Positions 17,772 through 24,549 of a stretch of 64,000 nucleotides of DNA are shown here, piece by piece. The first letter of the stretch is position 1, and every line of letters starts with the position of its first letter. Below the pieces are notes generated by a model. The model saw only the letters and a program-made list of their open reading frames with translations, ran no database searches and was not told the DNA's origin. Origin of the DNA: Halorubellus sp. JP-L1 (GTDB lineage Archaea; Halobacteriota; Halobacteria; Halobacteriales; Natrialbaceae); contig NZ_JAAOIR010000001.1 of NCBI RefSeq assembly GCF_011440375.1, positions 248,001 through 312,000 on the forward strand. Direction: 5' to 3'. Position numbers and translations under genes: made by a program.

Positions 17772-18245
17772 ATGGCTAGCGACGTACCCTACGAACCGGA
17801 GGACGTCCCGACGGACGTCGAGGCATCACCAGACGACTGCGAGGAGCCGGCGGCGACGGCGTGCGCGTACACCGAGTACGAGTACGTGGACGCGCCGAAC
17901 ACCGAGGAGTTGCCGGCAACGGGCGCCGACGCGGAGGGCGTCGAGCGCGCGGTCTGGGACGAACTGTACGACATCGAGGACCCCGAGATGCCCGTGAGCA
18001 TCGTCGACCTCGGGCTCCTCTATGGCGTGAGCGTCGAGGACGGCCACGCGGAGGTCGACATGACGCTGACGTACTCGGGGTGCCCAGCGAGGGAGATGCT
18101 GATGAGCGACGTCGAGGAGCGCGTCGCGAGCGTCGACGGCGTCGACGACGTCTCGCTCCGGCTCGTGTGGAACCCGCCGTGGGGCCTCGAGATGGTGACC
18201 GAACAGGGCAAGTCCGACCTGAACGACTTCGGACTGAGCGTCTGA
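17772..18245 (+). CDS. paaD: PaaD, MIP18/DUF59 domain, lacking its zinc ribbon
   Basis: 157 residues. PaaD assists iron-sulfur or diiron maturation of the epoxidase. Residues 60-150 are the DUF59/MIP18 domain with DPEMPVSIVDLGLLYGVSVE and the metal-site Cys in TYSGCPARE, and the domain ends VWNPPWGLEMVTEQGKSDL as in PaaD. Bacterial PaaD then continues into a zinc-binding C-terminal segment; here the protein stops and that segment is a separate downstream gene at 18247. The N-terminal 45 residues are acidic and contain two Cys not seen in bacterial relatives. Confidence 0.9.
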   Translation: MASDVPYEPEDVPTDVEASPDDCEEPAATACAYTEYEYVDAPNTEELPATGADAEGVERAVWDELYDIEDPEMPVSIVDLGLLYGVSVEDGHAEVDMTLTYSGCPAREMLMSDVEERVASVDGVDDVSLRLVWNPPWGLEMVTEQGKSDLNDFGLSV

Positions 18246-18246
18246 C

Positions 18247-18417
18247 ATGAGTCGTCGACTCGACCCGTCCGTCCAGACCAGCGGCGAGGTGGAGGGCGCG
18301 GAATGCCCGTACTGTGGGTCGACTGAGACCGAGCGCGAACACCCGAAGGGGCCGTCGCTGTGCCGGTCCATGCACTACTGTAACAGTTGCGAGCAGCCGT
18401 TCGAGAAGTTCGAGTGA
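18247..18417 (+). CDS. PaaD zinc-ribbon domain as a separate 56-residue protein
   Basis: ATG one base after the paaD stop opens a 56-codon frame, MSRRLDPSVQTSG onward. It holds CPYCGS near residue 20 and CRSMHYCNSCEQPFEKFE at the end. The second part matches the C terminus of bacterial PaaD/PaaJ, where a CPxCGS motif is followed by a C-x5-C-x2-C-x2-PF segment. So the gene encodes the zinc ribbon that is fused to the DUF59 domain in bacteria. It is the last gene of the paa cluster, and its stop codon abuts the first hairpin repeat unit. Confidence 0.85.
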   Translation: MSRRLDPSVQTSGEVEGAECPYCGSTETEREHPKGPSLCRSMHYCNSCEQPFEKFE

Positions 18418-18562
18418 ACTGACTCGCTAGGATACGGCGGTCTCTTGGCCGCCGTTTCCTGCGGGAACTGACTCGCTAGGATACGGCGGTCTCTTGGCCG
18501 CCGTTTCCTGCGGGAACTGACTCGCTAGGATACGGCGGTCTCTTGGCCGCCGTTTCCTGCGG
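18416..18562. repeat. three identical tandem 49-bp hairpin units after paa cluster
   Basis: Units at 18416-18464, 18465-18513 and 18514-18562. Each begins GAACTGACTCGCTAGG and contains the core ATACGGCGG-N8-CCGCCGTTTCC, an inverted repeat with 7-bp arms (ACGGCGG/CCGCCGT), loop TCTCTTGG, followed by TTT. The first unit starts inside the stop codon of the zinc-ribbon gene. A T5 run follows at 18584. The same core, with a different loop, occurs three times at 35381-35517. Confidence 0.9.
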
Positions 18563-18857
18563 TGCGGTAGCGGTTCCGGTGTCTTTTTGGAACTAATCGC
18601 ACGTGTATGCTGACGCCTCGCGCTCGTCGGTTCCTGTGATGTGAGGAGGCATGGGTCGCTAGGCTGTTTCATTCTCTTGATTCTCTGCGAACTATCCGTT
18701 CACCAGACTTGCGAATTGATCACTACGTATCCCACAAATCTCAGGTTCATTTTAGGAACGTTATCTCTATCAGTCCGAATCAATGCGACTAAATCTACGG
18801 ATAAGTTTGACTGTGAGATGCCATAACAATGATGGTGTGTAAGCACTAAGATTGGAT
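18563..18857. other. AT-richer intergenic segment at left edge of the island
   Basis: After the repeats, base composition shifts clearly: stretches such as ATCACTACGTATCCCAC and ATAAGTTTGACTG contrast with the GC-rich flanks. No ORF with convincing features, tRNA or inverted repeat was seen in it. The shift continues through three genes to about 21790. Confidence 0.6.
18584..18588 (+). terminator. T5 tract ending the paa cluster region
   Basis: TTTTT follows the hairpin array. Archaeal termination uses T-rich tracts, and together with the three hairpins this is a plausible end for the paa transcript. Confidence 0.4.
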
Positions 18858-19247
18858 ATGACATCCGACTCGCCTGACGAATGGGATTGGGCCGAGGGAT
18901 GGGACCAAGTATTTACTGTACTTGCTGTCGAACCGCGGCGAGAGATTATTCGTTCGTTGCTGGATGAACCCCATGAGCGTCGGCTTGCGTTACCTGAGGC
19001 GGCAGAGTCACCGAATCAATCGATGGGGACTGAGAGATTCACTCTTCAGTTGCGCCACCACCACCTCCCAAAGCTCGCGGACGCCGGATACATTCGTTGG
19101 GAGAGCGACCCGTTCTGTGTGCAGCGAGGCCCCCATTTCGAAGAACCAGCGTTCTTTATCGAGTCAGTACTCGAAGCCAAAGACGAGATCCCCTCCTCGC
19201 TGATCACCAACTGTAAGATTCTGCAGCAGATGACTGGCGCGGACTGA
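18858..19247 (+). CDS. winged-helix DNA-binding protein, DUF7344-like
   Basis: 129 residues. The centre resembles haloarchaeal winged-helix proteins: VLAVEPRREIIRSLLDEP as first helices and LRHHHLPKLADAGYIRWE as the recognition helix and wing. There is no sensor domain apart from an acidic Trp-rich start (EWDWAEGWDQ). ATG 18858 is preferred over a TTG two codons earlier. Codon use is less GC-biased than the flanking genes, as for the two kinases that follow. Likely a repressor or activator of a neighbouring gene, target unknown. Confidence 0.65.
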   Translation: MTSDSPDEWDWAEGWDQVFTVLAVEPRREIIRSLLDEPHERRLALPEAAESPNQSMGTERFTLQLRHHHLPKLADAGYIRWESDPFCVQRGPHFEEPAFFIESVLEAKDEIPSSLITNCKILQQMTGAD

Positions 19248-19429
19248 CTTGGTCGCCGCTCATTGCACGCCCTGTACTTGCGGACTATATGATCTCATAT
19301 CAAGTACCGATATAGTGACCGAAACATGCGCTCTGTCTGCGTCTTAGGCGGTTTAGTGGATTTCCTCTCGGAGTAGAGGAGTTCGATATCATTGACTTAT
19401 TTCAAGAAGATTCCGCGATTGAACCGTAA

Positions 19430-20479
19430 CTATTGCGCGGATTGTCTGTTAGCTTTCGGCAATACCATCGAGACGATATTTCCTCGAGGAGTGTTCTCTT
19501 CGAACCGAAGTTCACCGCCCAGAGCACTGATGCACCACTGCATTATCCAGAGACCGACCCCGGAACCGTGATACGTACTGTTCGTCTCCACTTCTTTCTG
19601 TAGTACCTCGATTTCTTCAGCCGGAATACGAGGTCCGTTATCAGCGATTCGAACCTCGCAATACTCTTCTACAGAATCCTCACGTAATGTTATAGAGACG
19701 CTCGGAATGTCCTGATCGTTGTGCTCGATGGCGTTCCGAACAGCATGCTCAACTGCATAGGTGAAGCCCCGATCAGCGATGACGAAGATCTCAGCTGGAC
19801 CCTCAATGCTCACCCCGAAATCGGCGTATTCCTCTTGACTCTCTTCGACGACCGTTTCGACGACCCGTCGAAGATTCGTCGGTTCACGCTCCATCGCGTC
19901 GGGTTCAGCAATCTCTTCAAGTTGCTTCACTGAGTCACTGAGCGTTCCAACTTCAGTCGTGATCTCGATAATTGTCTCTATCTCCTCTTCGAGTGATTCG
20001 TCTTCAACAGCAGTTTTGATCCTGTCCGCATAGCCCAGTAGCACGTTCGTCCTATTTCGGAGGTTGTGGCGGACGATTCGACTTAACAGTCCGAGCCGGC
20101 GCTCACGTGCTCGATACTCGGTCATATCTTCCACCTTCGCAGCGACATACTCAGCGTCATTGATGGTAACCGAGCGGAGATGGAACCGAGTCCATCGGAA
20201 CTCGCCGTTTGCCCGTTTGATTTGCCACTCGAAGATCTGTGATTCACCGCCAGCGGCCCTTTCTATCCGAGCGAGAACGTCCTCCTTTGAGAGCATCGTT
20301 GATGGTGCCGTGAAATCCTCGACGTTCATCGTTCGAAGTTCATCGAGAGAATATCCGTAGAGGTCTTCGACCGGCCGGTTCCCCTCCAGAACTGCCCCTC
20401 GTTCCGGATCAAATAGAAGGACCCCTATATCGAAACCCTCCAAGATGGGCGGCAGGTGCACTTCGTCTCTATTAGTCAT
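19430..20479 (-). CDS. soluble PAS histidine kinase
   Basis: 349 residues. A PAS domain occupies about residues 10-125 (FDIGVLLFDPERGAVLEGNR, YGYSLDELRTM, FEWQIKRANGEFRW). The H-box RIVRHNLRNRTNVLLGYADR carries the His near residue 138 in the HNLRN form common in haloarchaeal kinases. The ATPase domain shows N-box HAVRNAIEHND, G1 RIADNGPRIP and G2 GSGVGLWIMQW. No membrane segment or receiver domain. It is divergent from the next kinase. A minus-strand TATA candidate CTAATTAG lies at 20502-20509. AT-richer codons mark it as part of the island. Confidence 0.85.
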   Translation of the reverse strand: MTNRDEVHLPPILEGFDIGVLLFDPERGAVLEGNRPVEDLYGYSLDELRTMNVEDFTAPSTMLSKEDVLARIERAAGGESQIFEWQIKRANGEFRWTRFHLRSVTINDAEYVAAKVEDMTEYRARERRLGLLSRIVRHNLRNRTNVLLGYADRIKTAVEDESLEEEIETIIEITTEVGTLSDSVKQLEEIAEPDAMEREPTNLRRVVETVVEESQEEYADFGVSIEGPAEIFVIADRGFTYAVEHAVRNAIEHNDQDIPSVSITLREDSVEEYCEVRIADNGPRIPAEEIEVLQKEVETNSTYHGSGVGLWIMQWCISALGGELRFEENTPRGNIVSMVLPKANRQSAQ

Positions 20480-20631
20480 ATAAAAACCAGAAGTAGACGC
20501 GCTAATTAGTGATTGCTATCGAGGCAAACTCGCTGAGGAGAGACGGAAAGGCCGTAACTTGGTAAGTTTCCGGGTTCTCAGTCTCCCGGTTCTGCCATCG
20601 CACTTTTCCCGTTCGTGAGCGAAGTGATTCC

Positions 20632-21654
20632 ATGAACGATTGTTCTCCGTCGGACCTTTCGGTTCACCCTATTTATCCCCAGACTCTCGTCTCGAATTTC
20701 CCGAATGGAGTACTGGTGCTGTTCGATACTGATCTGCGGTATCGAATGGTCGGGCCTGACGTTCTCCCCTTCTCGAAGCGGGAAGCCACAGATATGGAAG
20801 GGAAAACGATCAATGAGCTATTTGGTGAGTCAGCCGGCGCTGAACTCGAACCAGAACTTCGGGCGACACTCGGAGGCGACTCACGTTCGTTCGATATGAC
20901 CTACGACGACCAGATCCATCACATTGAGACTCGACCAGTTACGATTGATGGGGCACCATTTGGCGTACTGGTGACGCAGGAAGTGACCGGCGAGCGGGAA
21001 ACGACGATCGAACTTGAAGAGAAGACTGAGCGCCTTGAGATGGTCGCGAGTATCCTCTCGCATGATCTCCGCAACCCCCTCAACGTTGCACTCGGGCACC
21101 TCGACGAACTTCAGGCCGAGGGTACAGCGTCCCAGGAATCGCTTTCGGAGATTCGCCGGGCGCTCACTCGCATGGATACCATAATGGAGGACGCACATGT
21201 GTTAGCTCGAACGACGACACTGAATGACGTCGAACGCACGACTCTTCGGTCACTTGTGGAATCGGCCTGGCTGACCGTTCCGACGGAGGCGGCGACACTC
21301 GACGTGAAGGACGAACTGACTCTCGAGGCTGATTCCGGATTGATGAGGAACCTTTTTGAGAACTTGATACGGAATGCAATCTCCCATGGCGGCCCTACCG
21401 TCGGCGTACATGTTGGTGCTCTAGATACCCAGAGGGGGTTCTATTTTGAAGACGACGGGTCTGGTATTGATGTAGAGCGAAGAGACGTGGTATTCGATAG
21501 CGGACGCACGAGTGGCGACGACAAATCACATAGCGGTCTCGGGCTTAACATCGTTCAAGAGATTGTCACCGCTCATGGGTGGCATATAGAGGTGACCGAT
21601 GCTACGTCCGGGGGGGCCCGATTCGAGATCACTGGGGTAACACCCCATGAGTGA
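20632..21654 (+). CDS. soluble PAS-like histidine kinase
   Basis: 340 residues. The N-terminal 120 residues look like a PAS fold (FPNGVLVLFDTDLRYRMVGP, GKTINELFGES, HHIETRPVTIDGAPFGVLV). The H-box ASILSHDLRNPLNVALGHL has His near residue 144; N-box NLFENLIRNAISHGG, G1 FEDDGSGID and G2 HSGLGLNIVQEIV follow. The catalytic half resembles the C terminus of the large kinase at 12600-14768. No partner receiver gene is nearby. It reads away from the other island kinase across a 152-base shared promoter region. Confidence 0.85.
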   Translation: MNDCSPSDLSVHPIYPQTLVSNFPNGVLVLFDTDLRYRMVGPDVLPFSKREATDMEGKTINELFGESAGAELEPELRATLGGDSRSFDMTYDDQIHHIETRPVTIDGAPFGVLVTQEVTGERETTIELEEKTERLEMVASILSHDLRNPLNVALGHLDELQAEGTASQESLSEIRRALTRMDTIMEDAHVLARTTTLNDVERTTLRSLVESAWLTVPTEAATLDVKDELTLEADSGLMRNLFENLIRNAISHGGPTVGVHVGALDTQRGFYFEDDGSGIDVERRDVVFDSGRTSGDDKSHSGLGLNIVQEIVTAHGWHIEVTDATSGGARFEITGVTPHE

Positions 21655-21831
21655 ATTCAGCCGACGACTGCTTGTTGGTAATCTTCTATCGGTAAGACAT
21701 TTTCCTGTATCTATCGATCGCTGAGGTCTTTCAAGAGATGGTGTGGAGGTTGTTCTCTGCAATCCTGGGGCGGGAGAGCGTCTATCTGTGAGGCGCATTA
21801 CTTTTGTCAGTTGGGTGCAGTGCGTGTTGGT

Positions 21832-22647
21832 ATGACGCGTGAGCCGTTGGCGACGTTGTCGGGGAGTCGGGCGGGGTTCCGGGAGATGGTGAACCTCGCG
21901 GCGTTGGGGACCGGGGATGGGGTGTACTACGACGAGATGCTGGTTCGGGTGACGGCGGATCGAGTGGAGACGCCGGCTGGGAAGCGCGAGACGTCGATGG
22001 CGGCGTACTGTACGGTCGAGCACGGGGCGTTCGACGGGGTGTCGTTGCATATCGACGAGCCGGCGGTCGCGATCTTCGACATCGAGGCGGCGCTGGGGTG
22101 GTTGGAGTGGTTGGAGGCCGACGACGTGGACGTGGTACTGTTGGGCGATCCGGGGGATGCGTTCGCTGGGACGCTGGAGTTCCGGACGGACGCGGAGACG
22201 GTGCAGGTGGCGTGCCGGCACGGCCCGGAGATACTGGGGGAGGTGACGACGGAGCTGCCGTCGCGGTTCGACGACGCGGACCGGTTCCGGCTGGAGGACG
22301 GCTCGCGGGCGCCGACGCTCGTGGAGACGACGGCGGGCGAACTGGAGCGGCTCGCGGACGCAGTCGAACTGGCGGAGACCGTGGACGGCTATCCGGTCGT
22401 CGTCGCGGACGGGCGGTTCGAGCTGGACGTCGGGAGCGAGCTCTCGCTCGCGCACGCGAGAACGACGCTGGACGGGAAGGTGACGGGGCCGGACGTCGCG
22501 AACCGCTACAGCGCGGACCTGGCGGCGCTCGCGCGCGCACTCGACGGCGACGTCGTCCTCCAGACGGGGCCGGACGAGCCGCTGGTCGTCGTGCAGACGC
22601 ACTCGCTGTTCACGCTCCGCTACGTCCTGTTGCCGGCGTCGTGGTGA
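21832..22647 (+). CDS. divergent PCNA-like sliding-clamp-fold protein
   Basis: 271 residues, two similar halves. Half one: GFREMVNLAALG helix, strand MLVRVTADRVETPAG, then VAIFDIEAALGWLEWL and TLEFRTDAETVQVACR. Half two: LVETTAGELERLADAVELAE, YSADLAALARALDGDVVLQT, PDEPLVVV and the ending TLRYVLLPAS. The order of helix, DG-like turn, linking helix and strand pair, and the last strand, parallel archaeal PCNA (second half ...SLDYLKDM..., LELGEEFPVKL, VTYMLAP). I infer a clamp paralogue, not the replicative PCNA, since residue identity is low. Start ATG 21832. It lies just right of the AT-rich island. A haloarchaea-specific protein of unknown role is the fallback call. Confidence 0.6.
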   Translation: MTREPLATLSGSRAGFREMVNLAALGTGDGVYYDEMLVRVTADRVETPAGKRETSMAAYCTVEHGAFDGVSLHIDEPAVAIFDIEAALGWLEWLEADDVDVVLLGDPGDAFAGTLEFRTDAETVQVACRHGPEILGEVTTELPSRFDDADRFRLEDGSRAPTLVETTAGELERLADAVELAETVDGYPVVVADGRFELDVGSELSLAHARTTLDGKVTGPDVANRYSADLAALARALDGDVVLQTGPDEPLVVVQTHSLFTLRYVLLPASW

Positions 22648-22678: not shown

Positions 22679-22843
22679 TTACGACGGTCGCCCGAGTTCG
22701 AGCGTGTAGTCGGAGCGGATCCACGCGTTCTCGTTCTCCTCGTCGTAGATCTCTACGCTGCCGTTCTCGGCGTCGCGTGCGTTGAACCGGTTTGCTATCT
22801 CGGGCGGGTCTGCGGTCGTGTCACCGTCGTTCGTGCTGTCCAT
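22679..22843 (-). CDS. 54-residue DUF7331-like small protein
   Basis: A 54-codon ORF read from ATG 22843, MDSTNDGDTTADPPE onward, with the central pattern VEIYDEENENAWIRSD. The YDxExxxAWIxSD pattern resembles a family of very small haloarchaeal proteins (DUF7331). Acidic, no membrane segment, no Cys. It converges with the clamp-like gene, ending 31 bases from that stop, and is divergent from nop5. Function unknown. Confidence 0.6.
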   Translation of the reverse strand: MDSTNDGDTTADPPEIANRFNARDAENGSVEIYDEENENAWIRSDYTLELGRPS

Positions 22844-23035: not shown

Positions 23036-23911
23036 ATGACCGACGACGGGTGGTTCGTCGACTGCGAGCCGGGGGACGTCGACGCGGCGTCAGCGGCGGT
23101 CCGGGATGGAACGGCCGACGAGCCCGCGGACTGGCCGATGCGAGCGATCGAAGCGGGATTCGCGTCGGACGAGGACTCGTACTACGACGCGCTCCACGAG
23201 GCGACCGTGACGGCGGCGCGCGCCGAGGCGGTCGAACGCGAGCGCGCAGACGACCAGCAGCTCGTGCATGCGGTCCGAGCGATGGACGATTGCGCGCGGA
23301 CGGCGAACGAACTCGCGGAGCGTGCGGCGGAGTGGGCCGGCGGCCTGTTCGACGCGACCGGCGGGGGCGTTCCGCTGGCGCGCGAGGTCGCGGACCGGGA
23401 ACCGGAGACGCCCGCGGAGGAGCGTGCCGTCTCGCTCGCGGAGCGCGTCGTCGACCTGGACGCCGAGGCGGAGTCGCTGCGGGCGTTCGTCGAGCAGCAG
23501 GCGCCGACGGTCGCGCCGAACCTCGCATCGATGGCGGGGCCGGTACTCGCCGCGCGGCTCGTGTCGCTCGCGGGGAGCCTGGAGTCGCTCGCGAAGCAGC
23601 CCAGCGGGACGGTGCAGGTGCTCGGGGCGGAGGACGCGCTGTTCGCGCACCTCCGCGGCCGCGCCTCGTCCCCGAAGCACGGCATCATCTACACGCACGA
23701 GTACGTCCGCGGCACGCACCCCGAAAATCGGGGGTCCGCGTCGCGAGCGCTCGCGGGGAAGCTCGCCATCGCGGCCCGCATCGACCACTACAGCGGCGAG
23801 CGCAAGCCCGAGATCGAGGCGGAGCTCGACGAGCGCATCGCGACCATCCGCGCCCGCACCGGCGACGAGATGCCAGCTGATACTACCGACGACGGAGGTG
23901 ACGAGGCGTGA
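23036..23911 (+). CDS. nop5: Nop5/Nop56-type C/D box RNP core protein
   Basis: 291 residues. The C-terminal Nop domain is clear: VAPNLASMAGPVLAARLVSL, AGSLESLAKQPSGTVQVLGA, EDALFAHLR, KHGIIYTHEYVRG and LAGKLAIAARIDHYSGE. Nop5 binds L7Ae and the guide RNA and recruits fibrillarin to 2'-O-methylate rRNA and tRNA. The N-terminal fibrillarin-binding part is short and divergent, as usual in haloarchaea. Start ATG 23036 follows a TATA box. GGAGGTG near the gene end (23894-23900) is the ribosome site of flpA, whose GTG start overlaps this stop. Confidence 0.88.
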   Translation: MTDDGWFVDCEPGDVDAASAAVRDGTADEPADWPMRAIEAGFASDEDSYYDALHEATVTAARAEAVERERADDQQLVHAVRAMDDCARTANELAERAAEWAGGLFDATGGGVPLAREVADREPETPAEERAVSLAERVVDLDAEAESLRAFVEQQAPTVAPNLASMAGPVLAARLVSLAGSLESLAKQPSGTVQVLGAEDALFAHLRGRASSPKHGIIYTHEYVRGTHPENRGSASRALAGKLAIAARIDHYSGERKPEIEAELDERIATIRARTGDEMPADTTDDGGDEA

Positions 23912-24549
23912 CCGACGGCGTCGACCTCCCGGCGGGCGTCGAGCGACGGGAGTTCGGGGACGGCGAGACGCTCGCGACGCGCGGGCCCGCAGTCGGTCCG
24001 GAGGCGACCGACGGCGAGTGGCGGGCGTGGGACGCGACCCGGTCGAAGCTCGCCGCGACGTACGCGGTCGGCCTCGATCCCGGCCTCGCCGCCGACGCGA
24101 CCGTCCTCTACCTCGGTGCGGCCGCTGGGACGACGGCGAGTCACGTCGCAGACGTCGCCGGTCCGACGTACGCCGTCGAGTTCGCGCCCCGACCGGTCCG
24201 GGACCTCTGCCGCGTCGCGGCGGACCGCGACCGCCTGTTCCCGCTGCTCGCGGACGCCCGCAAACCGCGCGAGTACGCGCACGTCGTCGAAGCGGACTGC
24301 GACCTCCTCGTGCAGGACGTCGCCACGCGCGGGCAGGCCGACGTCGCGCTTCGGAATCGCCAGTTCCTCGCCGACGACGGCCGGCTCGCGCTCGCGATCA
24401 AGGCCCGCAGCGAGGACGTCACCGGCGACCCCGACGACGTGTTCGACGCCGTCCTCGACGACCTCCGGGAGGGATACGACGTCCTCGAGACCGCGAGTCT
24501 CGAACCGTACCACGACGACCACCTCGCCGTCGTCGCGTCGCCGAAGTGA
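23908..24549 (+). CDS. flpA: fibrillarin-like rRNA/tRNA 2'-O-methyltransferase
   Basis: 213 residues. Rossmann-type SAM methyltransferase with the fibrillarin motif [20 protein letters not shown] near residue 67 and the characteristic [20 protein letters not shown]. Further motifs are [14 protein letters not shown] and [13 protein letters not shown]. It acts with Nop5, L7Ae and C/D guide RNAs. GTG 23908 overlaps the nop5 stop (GTGA) and sits 7 bases after GGAGGTG, so the pair is translationally coupled. Confidence 0.92.

Follow-up and report, generated by a model that had tools for sequence, protein, structure and literature searches.

Second sliding clamps in archaea and clamps of their viruses

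Most euryarchaea are held to use one PCNA for all clamp-dependent work. Second euryarchaeal PCNAs, present in addition to the main one and for which a lateral or viral origin has been proposed, include the dispensable TK0582 of T. kodakarensis (PMC3984812) and those of four haloarchaea, one of which was traced to phage PhiCh1 (PMC3404096). The latter were found via Pfam PCNA domains, whereas the family described here is Pfam-negative and its locus is conserved across genera. Extra haloarchaeal PCNAs are known, but this divergent, Pfam-invisible cellular lineage appears to be undescribed in the freely accessible papers searched. The closest non-cellular relatives of this family are the clamps of Druskaviridae (HVTV-1/2, HCTV-1/5/16; PHROG 25687), which share full-length homology, the same length class and the same predicted fold (TM 0.92) with it; they differ in being only 28-30% identical to it, in lying in a replication cluster and in forming a clade with mobile-element copies, whereas the gene studied here stands alone between paaD and nop5.

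The gene was found at 21832-22647 of the window, a 64,000-nt stretch of the Halorubellus sp. JP-L1 genome. On balance, and with modest confidence, it is interpreted as encoding an accessory sliding clamp of the PCNA superfamily, the second in this genome, chromosomally fixed and forming a homotypic, RFC-loaded ring with a non-replisome or additional partner. The fold, the homology to viral clamps, the distinctness from the replicative PCNA, the conserved locus, the purifying selection and the dispensability, the last indicated by loss in relatives, are the strongly supported parts of this reading. If it is true, clamp function in haloarchaea is split or borrowed more often than annotation suggests, as the second clamp is invisible to Pfam and NCBIfam, under selection in the cell and kin to viral clamps. 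Moreover, haloarchaea are genetically tractable, so the partner of the clamp and the need for it are directly testable.

Gene and protein organization

The clamp ORF spans exactly 21832-22647 on the + strand and encodes 271 aa plus a stop codon; the mechanical ORF opens at a TTG at 21811, and the conserved start is the ATG at 21832. The features of the locus are as follows.

17772..18245, + strand: paaD, the conserved upstream neighbour (synteny)
18252..18398, + strand: Zn-ribbon ORF after paaD, the immediate upstream neighbour in orthologous loci (synteny)
21801..21807, + strand: CTTTTGT element, ~25 nt 5' of the clamp ATG
21832..22647, + strand: clamp gene, 271 aa, a PCNA-fold second sliding-clamp-like protein (fold, profile, synteny, dN/dS)
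21832..22212, + strand: N-terminal clamp domain, residues 1-127 (AlphaFold2 secondary structure; boundary inferred)
22213..22314, + strand: interdomain connecting loop, residues 128-161, ~34 aa (AlphaFold2, profile alignment, conservation)
22315..22644, + strand: C-terminal clamp domain, residues 162-271 (AlphaFold2, conservation)
23036..23911, + strand: nop5, conserved downstream neighbour (start placed at MTDDGWF by orthologue comparison)
23908..24549, + strand: flpA (fibrillarin-like), conserved downstream (synteny)

The interdomain loop bears the conserved motif LPxRFxxxxRFxxxDGxxAPT and is longer than that of H. volcanii PCNA, which comprises residues 109-129 (PMC2737543). In addition to LP.RF and DG..AP in this loop, the best-conserved stretches of the family are TxVET, VxGPxxxNxY and TLRYV in the second domain. 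Upstream of the gene, the other five orthologues carry CTTTTTGT, CTTTTGT or CTTTGGT at a position comparable to the CTTTTGT element, which is a candidate TATA-like core promoter for a short-leader transcript. Downstream, a 54-aa ORF on the minus strand (22679-22843), with a motif like YDEENENAWIRSDYTLEL close to its end, resembles a small ORF near the clamp in two other loci (L006 and L025) and encodes a small conserved haloarchaeal protein.

Predicted fold

Searches with the clamp protein against Pfam and NCBIfam returned zero families even at E 10, and a sequence search of the PDB matched nothing useful. An AlphaFold2 monomer prediction was made from a ten-row alignment of the window clamp, its Halorubellus salinus and Haloarchaeobius orthologues and seven viral clamps. 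The model had a mean pLDDT of 83.7 and a pTM of 0.78, with lower confidence at residues 27-32, in the interdomain loop (blocks at 67-70) and at the C-terminus, and both halves followed the strand-helix-strand order of PCNA, in agreement with the two-domain layout that the earlier note had read from the sequence. All 50 PDB matches listed by Foldseek were PCNAs or PCNA-type clamps, led by H. volcanii PCNA (3ifv, E 9.9e-14), and VIA-align 2 superposed the model on 3ifv over 229 of 271 residues (Z 21.8, 3.1 A, 17% identity). Both comparisons thus returned the DNA clamp fold that the earlier note had proposed. Among viral models (BFVD), the top match was HVTV-1 L7TKG1 (TM 0.92/0.87), and the next was far lower. 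This second-best viral match is an HCIV-1 protein (A0A1C7A3Q1), probably the VP1 virion protein of this icosahedral halovirus, in which PCNA domains have been reported (PMC4958249).

In profile-profile comparison, the whole-family profile aligned end to end and collinearly with that of 31 canonical archaeal PCNAs, a moderate match (pairwise P 4e-6, probability 72%), whereas small sub-alignments of the family against the canonical PCNA profile, as well as single-sequence hmmsearch of the clamp against canonical PCNA, stayed below significance. In this alignment, the C-terminal landmarks singled out at first sight, YSADLAALARAL, PDEPLVVV and TLRYVLLPAS, fell in register with SLDYLKDM, GEEFPVK and MLAP of PCNA. 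The typical archaeal PCNA start, previously thought to be missing, has instead diverged, with EPLATLSGSRAGF standing against MFKAIVSADTL after an N-terminal extension of ~3 residues. A full-length two-domain PCNA fold is strongly supported by the modelling for the predicted clamp product.

Comparison with the replicative PCNA and proposed function

The genome has one Pfam-detectable PCNA, a protein of 247 aa (MFKAIVSAD...) on another contig (C5), and the Pfam-based genome search gave that locus alone; the clamp itself had zero matches to curated PCNA models of Pfam (PF00705) or NCBIfam. With a canonical PCNA on contig C5 and the clamp family lost in relatives, the protein is not the sole replicative clamp of the genome, and the initial reading that it is not the replicative clamp is supported. 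Canonical haloarchaeal PCNA (3ifv and the genome's own) shares the two-domain fold with the clamp over nearly the full length, with a collinear profile alignment, whereas the clamp differs from it by an identity of only ~16%, the absence of a Pfam match, a longer interdomain loop and changed residues at the interface and on the PIP side. The residue mappings below come from this low-identity profile alignment, in which single positions may shift by one or two.

On the PIP side, M46 of the genome's PCNA corresponds to Y59 of the clamp, I122-P123 to L142-P143, P222 to P250 and A241-P242 to L267-P268. Most of the family has Tyr at the Y59 position. P268, the C-terminal Pro of the pocket, has been lost from two Haloarchaeobius clamps and from several copies of another family, so some members of the clamp family may no longer bind ordinary PIP boxes. 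The pore helices of the clamp hold 4 basic and 10 acidic residues (net -6), compared with 8 basic and 12 acidic (net -4) in the genome's own PCNA. The pore of haloarchaeal PCNA is itself weakly basic, so the fewer basic residues of the clamp are not decisive. R140, which is directed away from the pore in H. volcanii PCNA, corresponds to R173 of the clamp, and this position is Arg in 15 of 18 sequences and Lys in one more.

Taken as an accessory clamp, the protein would encircle duplex DNA as a ring of three copies, like other PCNA-fold proteins, and this ring would be homotypic, given that its interface residues are unlike the corresponding ones in host PCNA. The viral-type fused primase was not found in seven host genomes (in a search run without a positive control) and no loader gene lies near the clamp; on these grounds, host RFC would be the loader that opens the ring. 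Through its remodelled interdomain loop and the changed surface on the PIP side (Tyr59 for Met46, Leu142-Pro143 for Ile122-Pro123, Pro250 kept), the clamp would hold a partner from outside the replisome or one in addition to it, most likely a conditionally used repair or translesion enzyme. The clamp probably serves a partner other than the replisome, and the suggestion of a clamp paralogue with another, putative partner made in the earlier note is the best reading.

The rival explanations, from the most to the least probable, are a scaffold that forms no ring, a poison against viruses, a ring mixed with host PCNA, and decay. In the first, the protein has kept the PCNA fold but no longer encircles DNA, acting as a monomeric or small-oligomer scaffold with another purpose. 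The polar interface contacts of H. volcanii PCNA, R72, D172 and Y106 (PMC2737543), are not kept, as R72, Y106 and D172 correspond to A86, V124 and A207 in the clamp; the interface-side strands are among its less conserved parts, and the VP1 protein of HCIV-1 offers a precedent for PCNA-fold domains outside replication (PMC4958249). However, haloarchaeal PCNA subunits meet over a small surface, largely through main-chain contacts (PMC2737543), so that changed side chains are compatible with a ring, and the viral relatives lie in a replisome cluster with RFC and PolB. Loss of the ring is regarded as unlikely.

Viral and mobile-element relatives

A tblastn search against phages matched Druskaviridae only (HVTV-1/2 and HCTV-1/5/16), over the full length at 28-29% identity (E 2e-7), and the clamp matched the profile of PHROG 25687 at E 6e-21. 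In HCTV-16 and HVTV-2, the homologue is annotated as DNA polymerase sliding clamp PCNA and adjoins primase, with an RFC small subunit nearby and, in the HCTV-16 stretch, PolB as well; a search of both whole records gave zero Pfam-type PCNA. The window clamp does not lie in such a replisome neighbourhood. With queries drawn from the viral set, IMG/VR scans returned only Druskaviridae-type clamps, and with chromosomal or mobile queries they returned zero matches; plasmid records likewise gave zero clamp matches.

The mobile relatives have a different setting. A ParB_N gene adjoins the clamp directly upstream in G215 (L030:9391-11363) and G262 (L032:8960-11189), and in G307 (L029:8537-10135) a ParB N-terminal domain is fused to the clamp in one 532-aa frame. 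Integrase genes lie near the clamp in G291 and G262. It is unusual for a ParB-type domain to be coupled to a PCNA-type clamp, and the elements that carry this combination are likely integrative. Furthermore, McrBC-type restriction genes were found a few kb from the mobile clamps of G291 (L028:10745-15433) and G215 (L030:13313-17501), which represent two haloarchaeal families. The stretches read around chromosomal clamps had no ParB_N, integrase or McrBC genes. In G343 (L031:7668-9627), a clamp gene without its first half lies beside a transposase-like ORF and was probably broken by insertion.

In an unrooted tree of 18 rows and 277 columns with long branches, the twelve chromosomal copies separated from the virus and mobile-element copies (support 97/96), the Halorubellus and Haloarchaeobius clamps clustered (90/95), and the window clamp fell outside the viral clade. 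As judged from sequence, the clamp has a common origin with those found in viruses and integrative elements of haloarchaea, and the unrooted tree gives no direction of transfer. A bolder, tentative proposal, to which we attach low confidence, is that archaea have a clamp of a third kind, whose ancient lineage spans viruses, integrative elements (where some copies are joined to a ParB-type domain) and cells. Its cellular form would have become a ring devoted to non-replicative work with a partner of its own, perhaps in defence or the repair of foreign or modified DNA, in the spirit of the eukaryotic 9-1-1 clamp.

It is improbable that the protein is a captured viral-type clamp turned against viruses, poisoning incoming viral clamp rings or taking their loader or partners. 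Its kinship to Druskaviridae clamps, the McrBC genes near two mobile relatives, and a patchy presence with losses that would suit a dispensable defence trait are consistent with such a role, but mixed rings look unlikely at ~29% identity to the viral clamps and with the long separation in the tree, and defence genes were not seen beside the chromosomal copies.

Chromosomal locus, occurrence and selection

Returning to the clamp gene at 21832-22647, orthologues were identified in Halorubellus salinus GX3 (83% identity) and in four of six Haloarchaeobius (40-46%), with scattered copies in other families. Order-wide searches matched 14-16 of the 392 haloarchaeal genomes drawn, and in a phylum-wide draw three of 294 genomes matched, all haloarchaeal, with zero outside the order. 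The six Halorubellus and Haloarchaeobius genomes (two and four, respectively) share the order paaC-paaD-Zn ribbon-clamp-nop5-flpA-gshA, so the position 5' of nop5-flpA recorded at the outset is common to the orthologous loci. In two of these Haloarchaeobius, 1.3-3 kb of other DNA separates the clamp from nop5, with the clamp still by paaD; a nop5 operon including the clamp was rejected on this basis. A fifth Haloarchaeobius (G009, L105:2980-3060) retains 27 aa from the end of the clamp as a relic (67% identity) between the Zn-ribbon ORF and nop5, and another clamp-less member has not even a relic at the locus. The shared locus and the relic imply that the clamp predates the Halorubellus/Haloarchaeobius split, or entered the same site, and that it can be lost.

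Copies in another family have fixed neighbours of their own, namely uridine-phosphorylase-like (G338, G508), thiosulfate-sulfurtransferase-like (G178, G494, G497) and serS-like (G525) genes, names that were read from the sequence alone. As the neighbours of other chromosomal copies are quite different, clamp neighbours are uninformative on function, and a functional tie to the phenylacetate (paa) or rRNA methylation (nop5-flpA) genes was rejected.

Nei-Gojobori analysis gave a dN/dS of 0.28 for the window clamp against H. salinus and 0.26-0.35 across four chromosomal clamp pairs, compared with 0.17 for viral clamps and 0.12-0.24 for neighbouring genes, and purifying selection on the clamp is strongly supported. 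The clamp GC3 (0.92) is similar to that of paaC, paaD, nop5 and flpA (0.90-0.94). With orthologues in other species, this dN/dS and a neighbour-like GC3, the ORF is a real gene.

The loss pattern also bears on the suggestion, made in the earlier note, that the protein is a heterotrimer subunit, which would here assemble with host PCNA. Although crenarchaeal PCNA heterotrimers provide a precedent (PMC3984812), the clamp is lost in related species with the locus otherwise intact, the three host interface partners named above are replaced, and in H. volcanii, PCNA forms a stable trimer by itself (PMC2737543). This suggestion is without support, and a mixed ring is highly improbable.

An AT-rich island of ~3.2 kb (about 18557-21784; GC3 0.55-0.61), containing an HTH gene and two PAS/histidine-kinase genes, lies between the Zn-ribbon ORF and the clamp. 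The clamp does sit at the edge of this island, as previously remarked, but the association is incidental, as the island is lacking at the H. salinus locus, where the clamp is present, and is a later insertion; a provirus origin via the island was rejected on the same ground and by the GC3 difference. That the gene is a functionless leftover from a provirus or the adjoining island, as a virus-type homologue next to AT-rich DNA might suggest, has a next to negligible probability in view of its presence without the island in H. salinus, its GC3, its dN/dS, its same position in two genera, and the published failure to find Druskaviridae proviruses among archaeal genomes (PMC8651126). At ~18415-18560, a ~49-bp unit with the palindromic core ACGGCGGTCTCTTGGCCGCCGTT is repeated in tandem about three times; the repeat also occurs, diverged, 3' of the Zn-ribbon ORF in H. 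salinus, and the units are perhaps repeated terminators.
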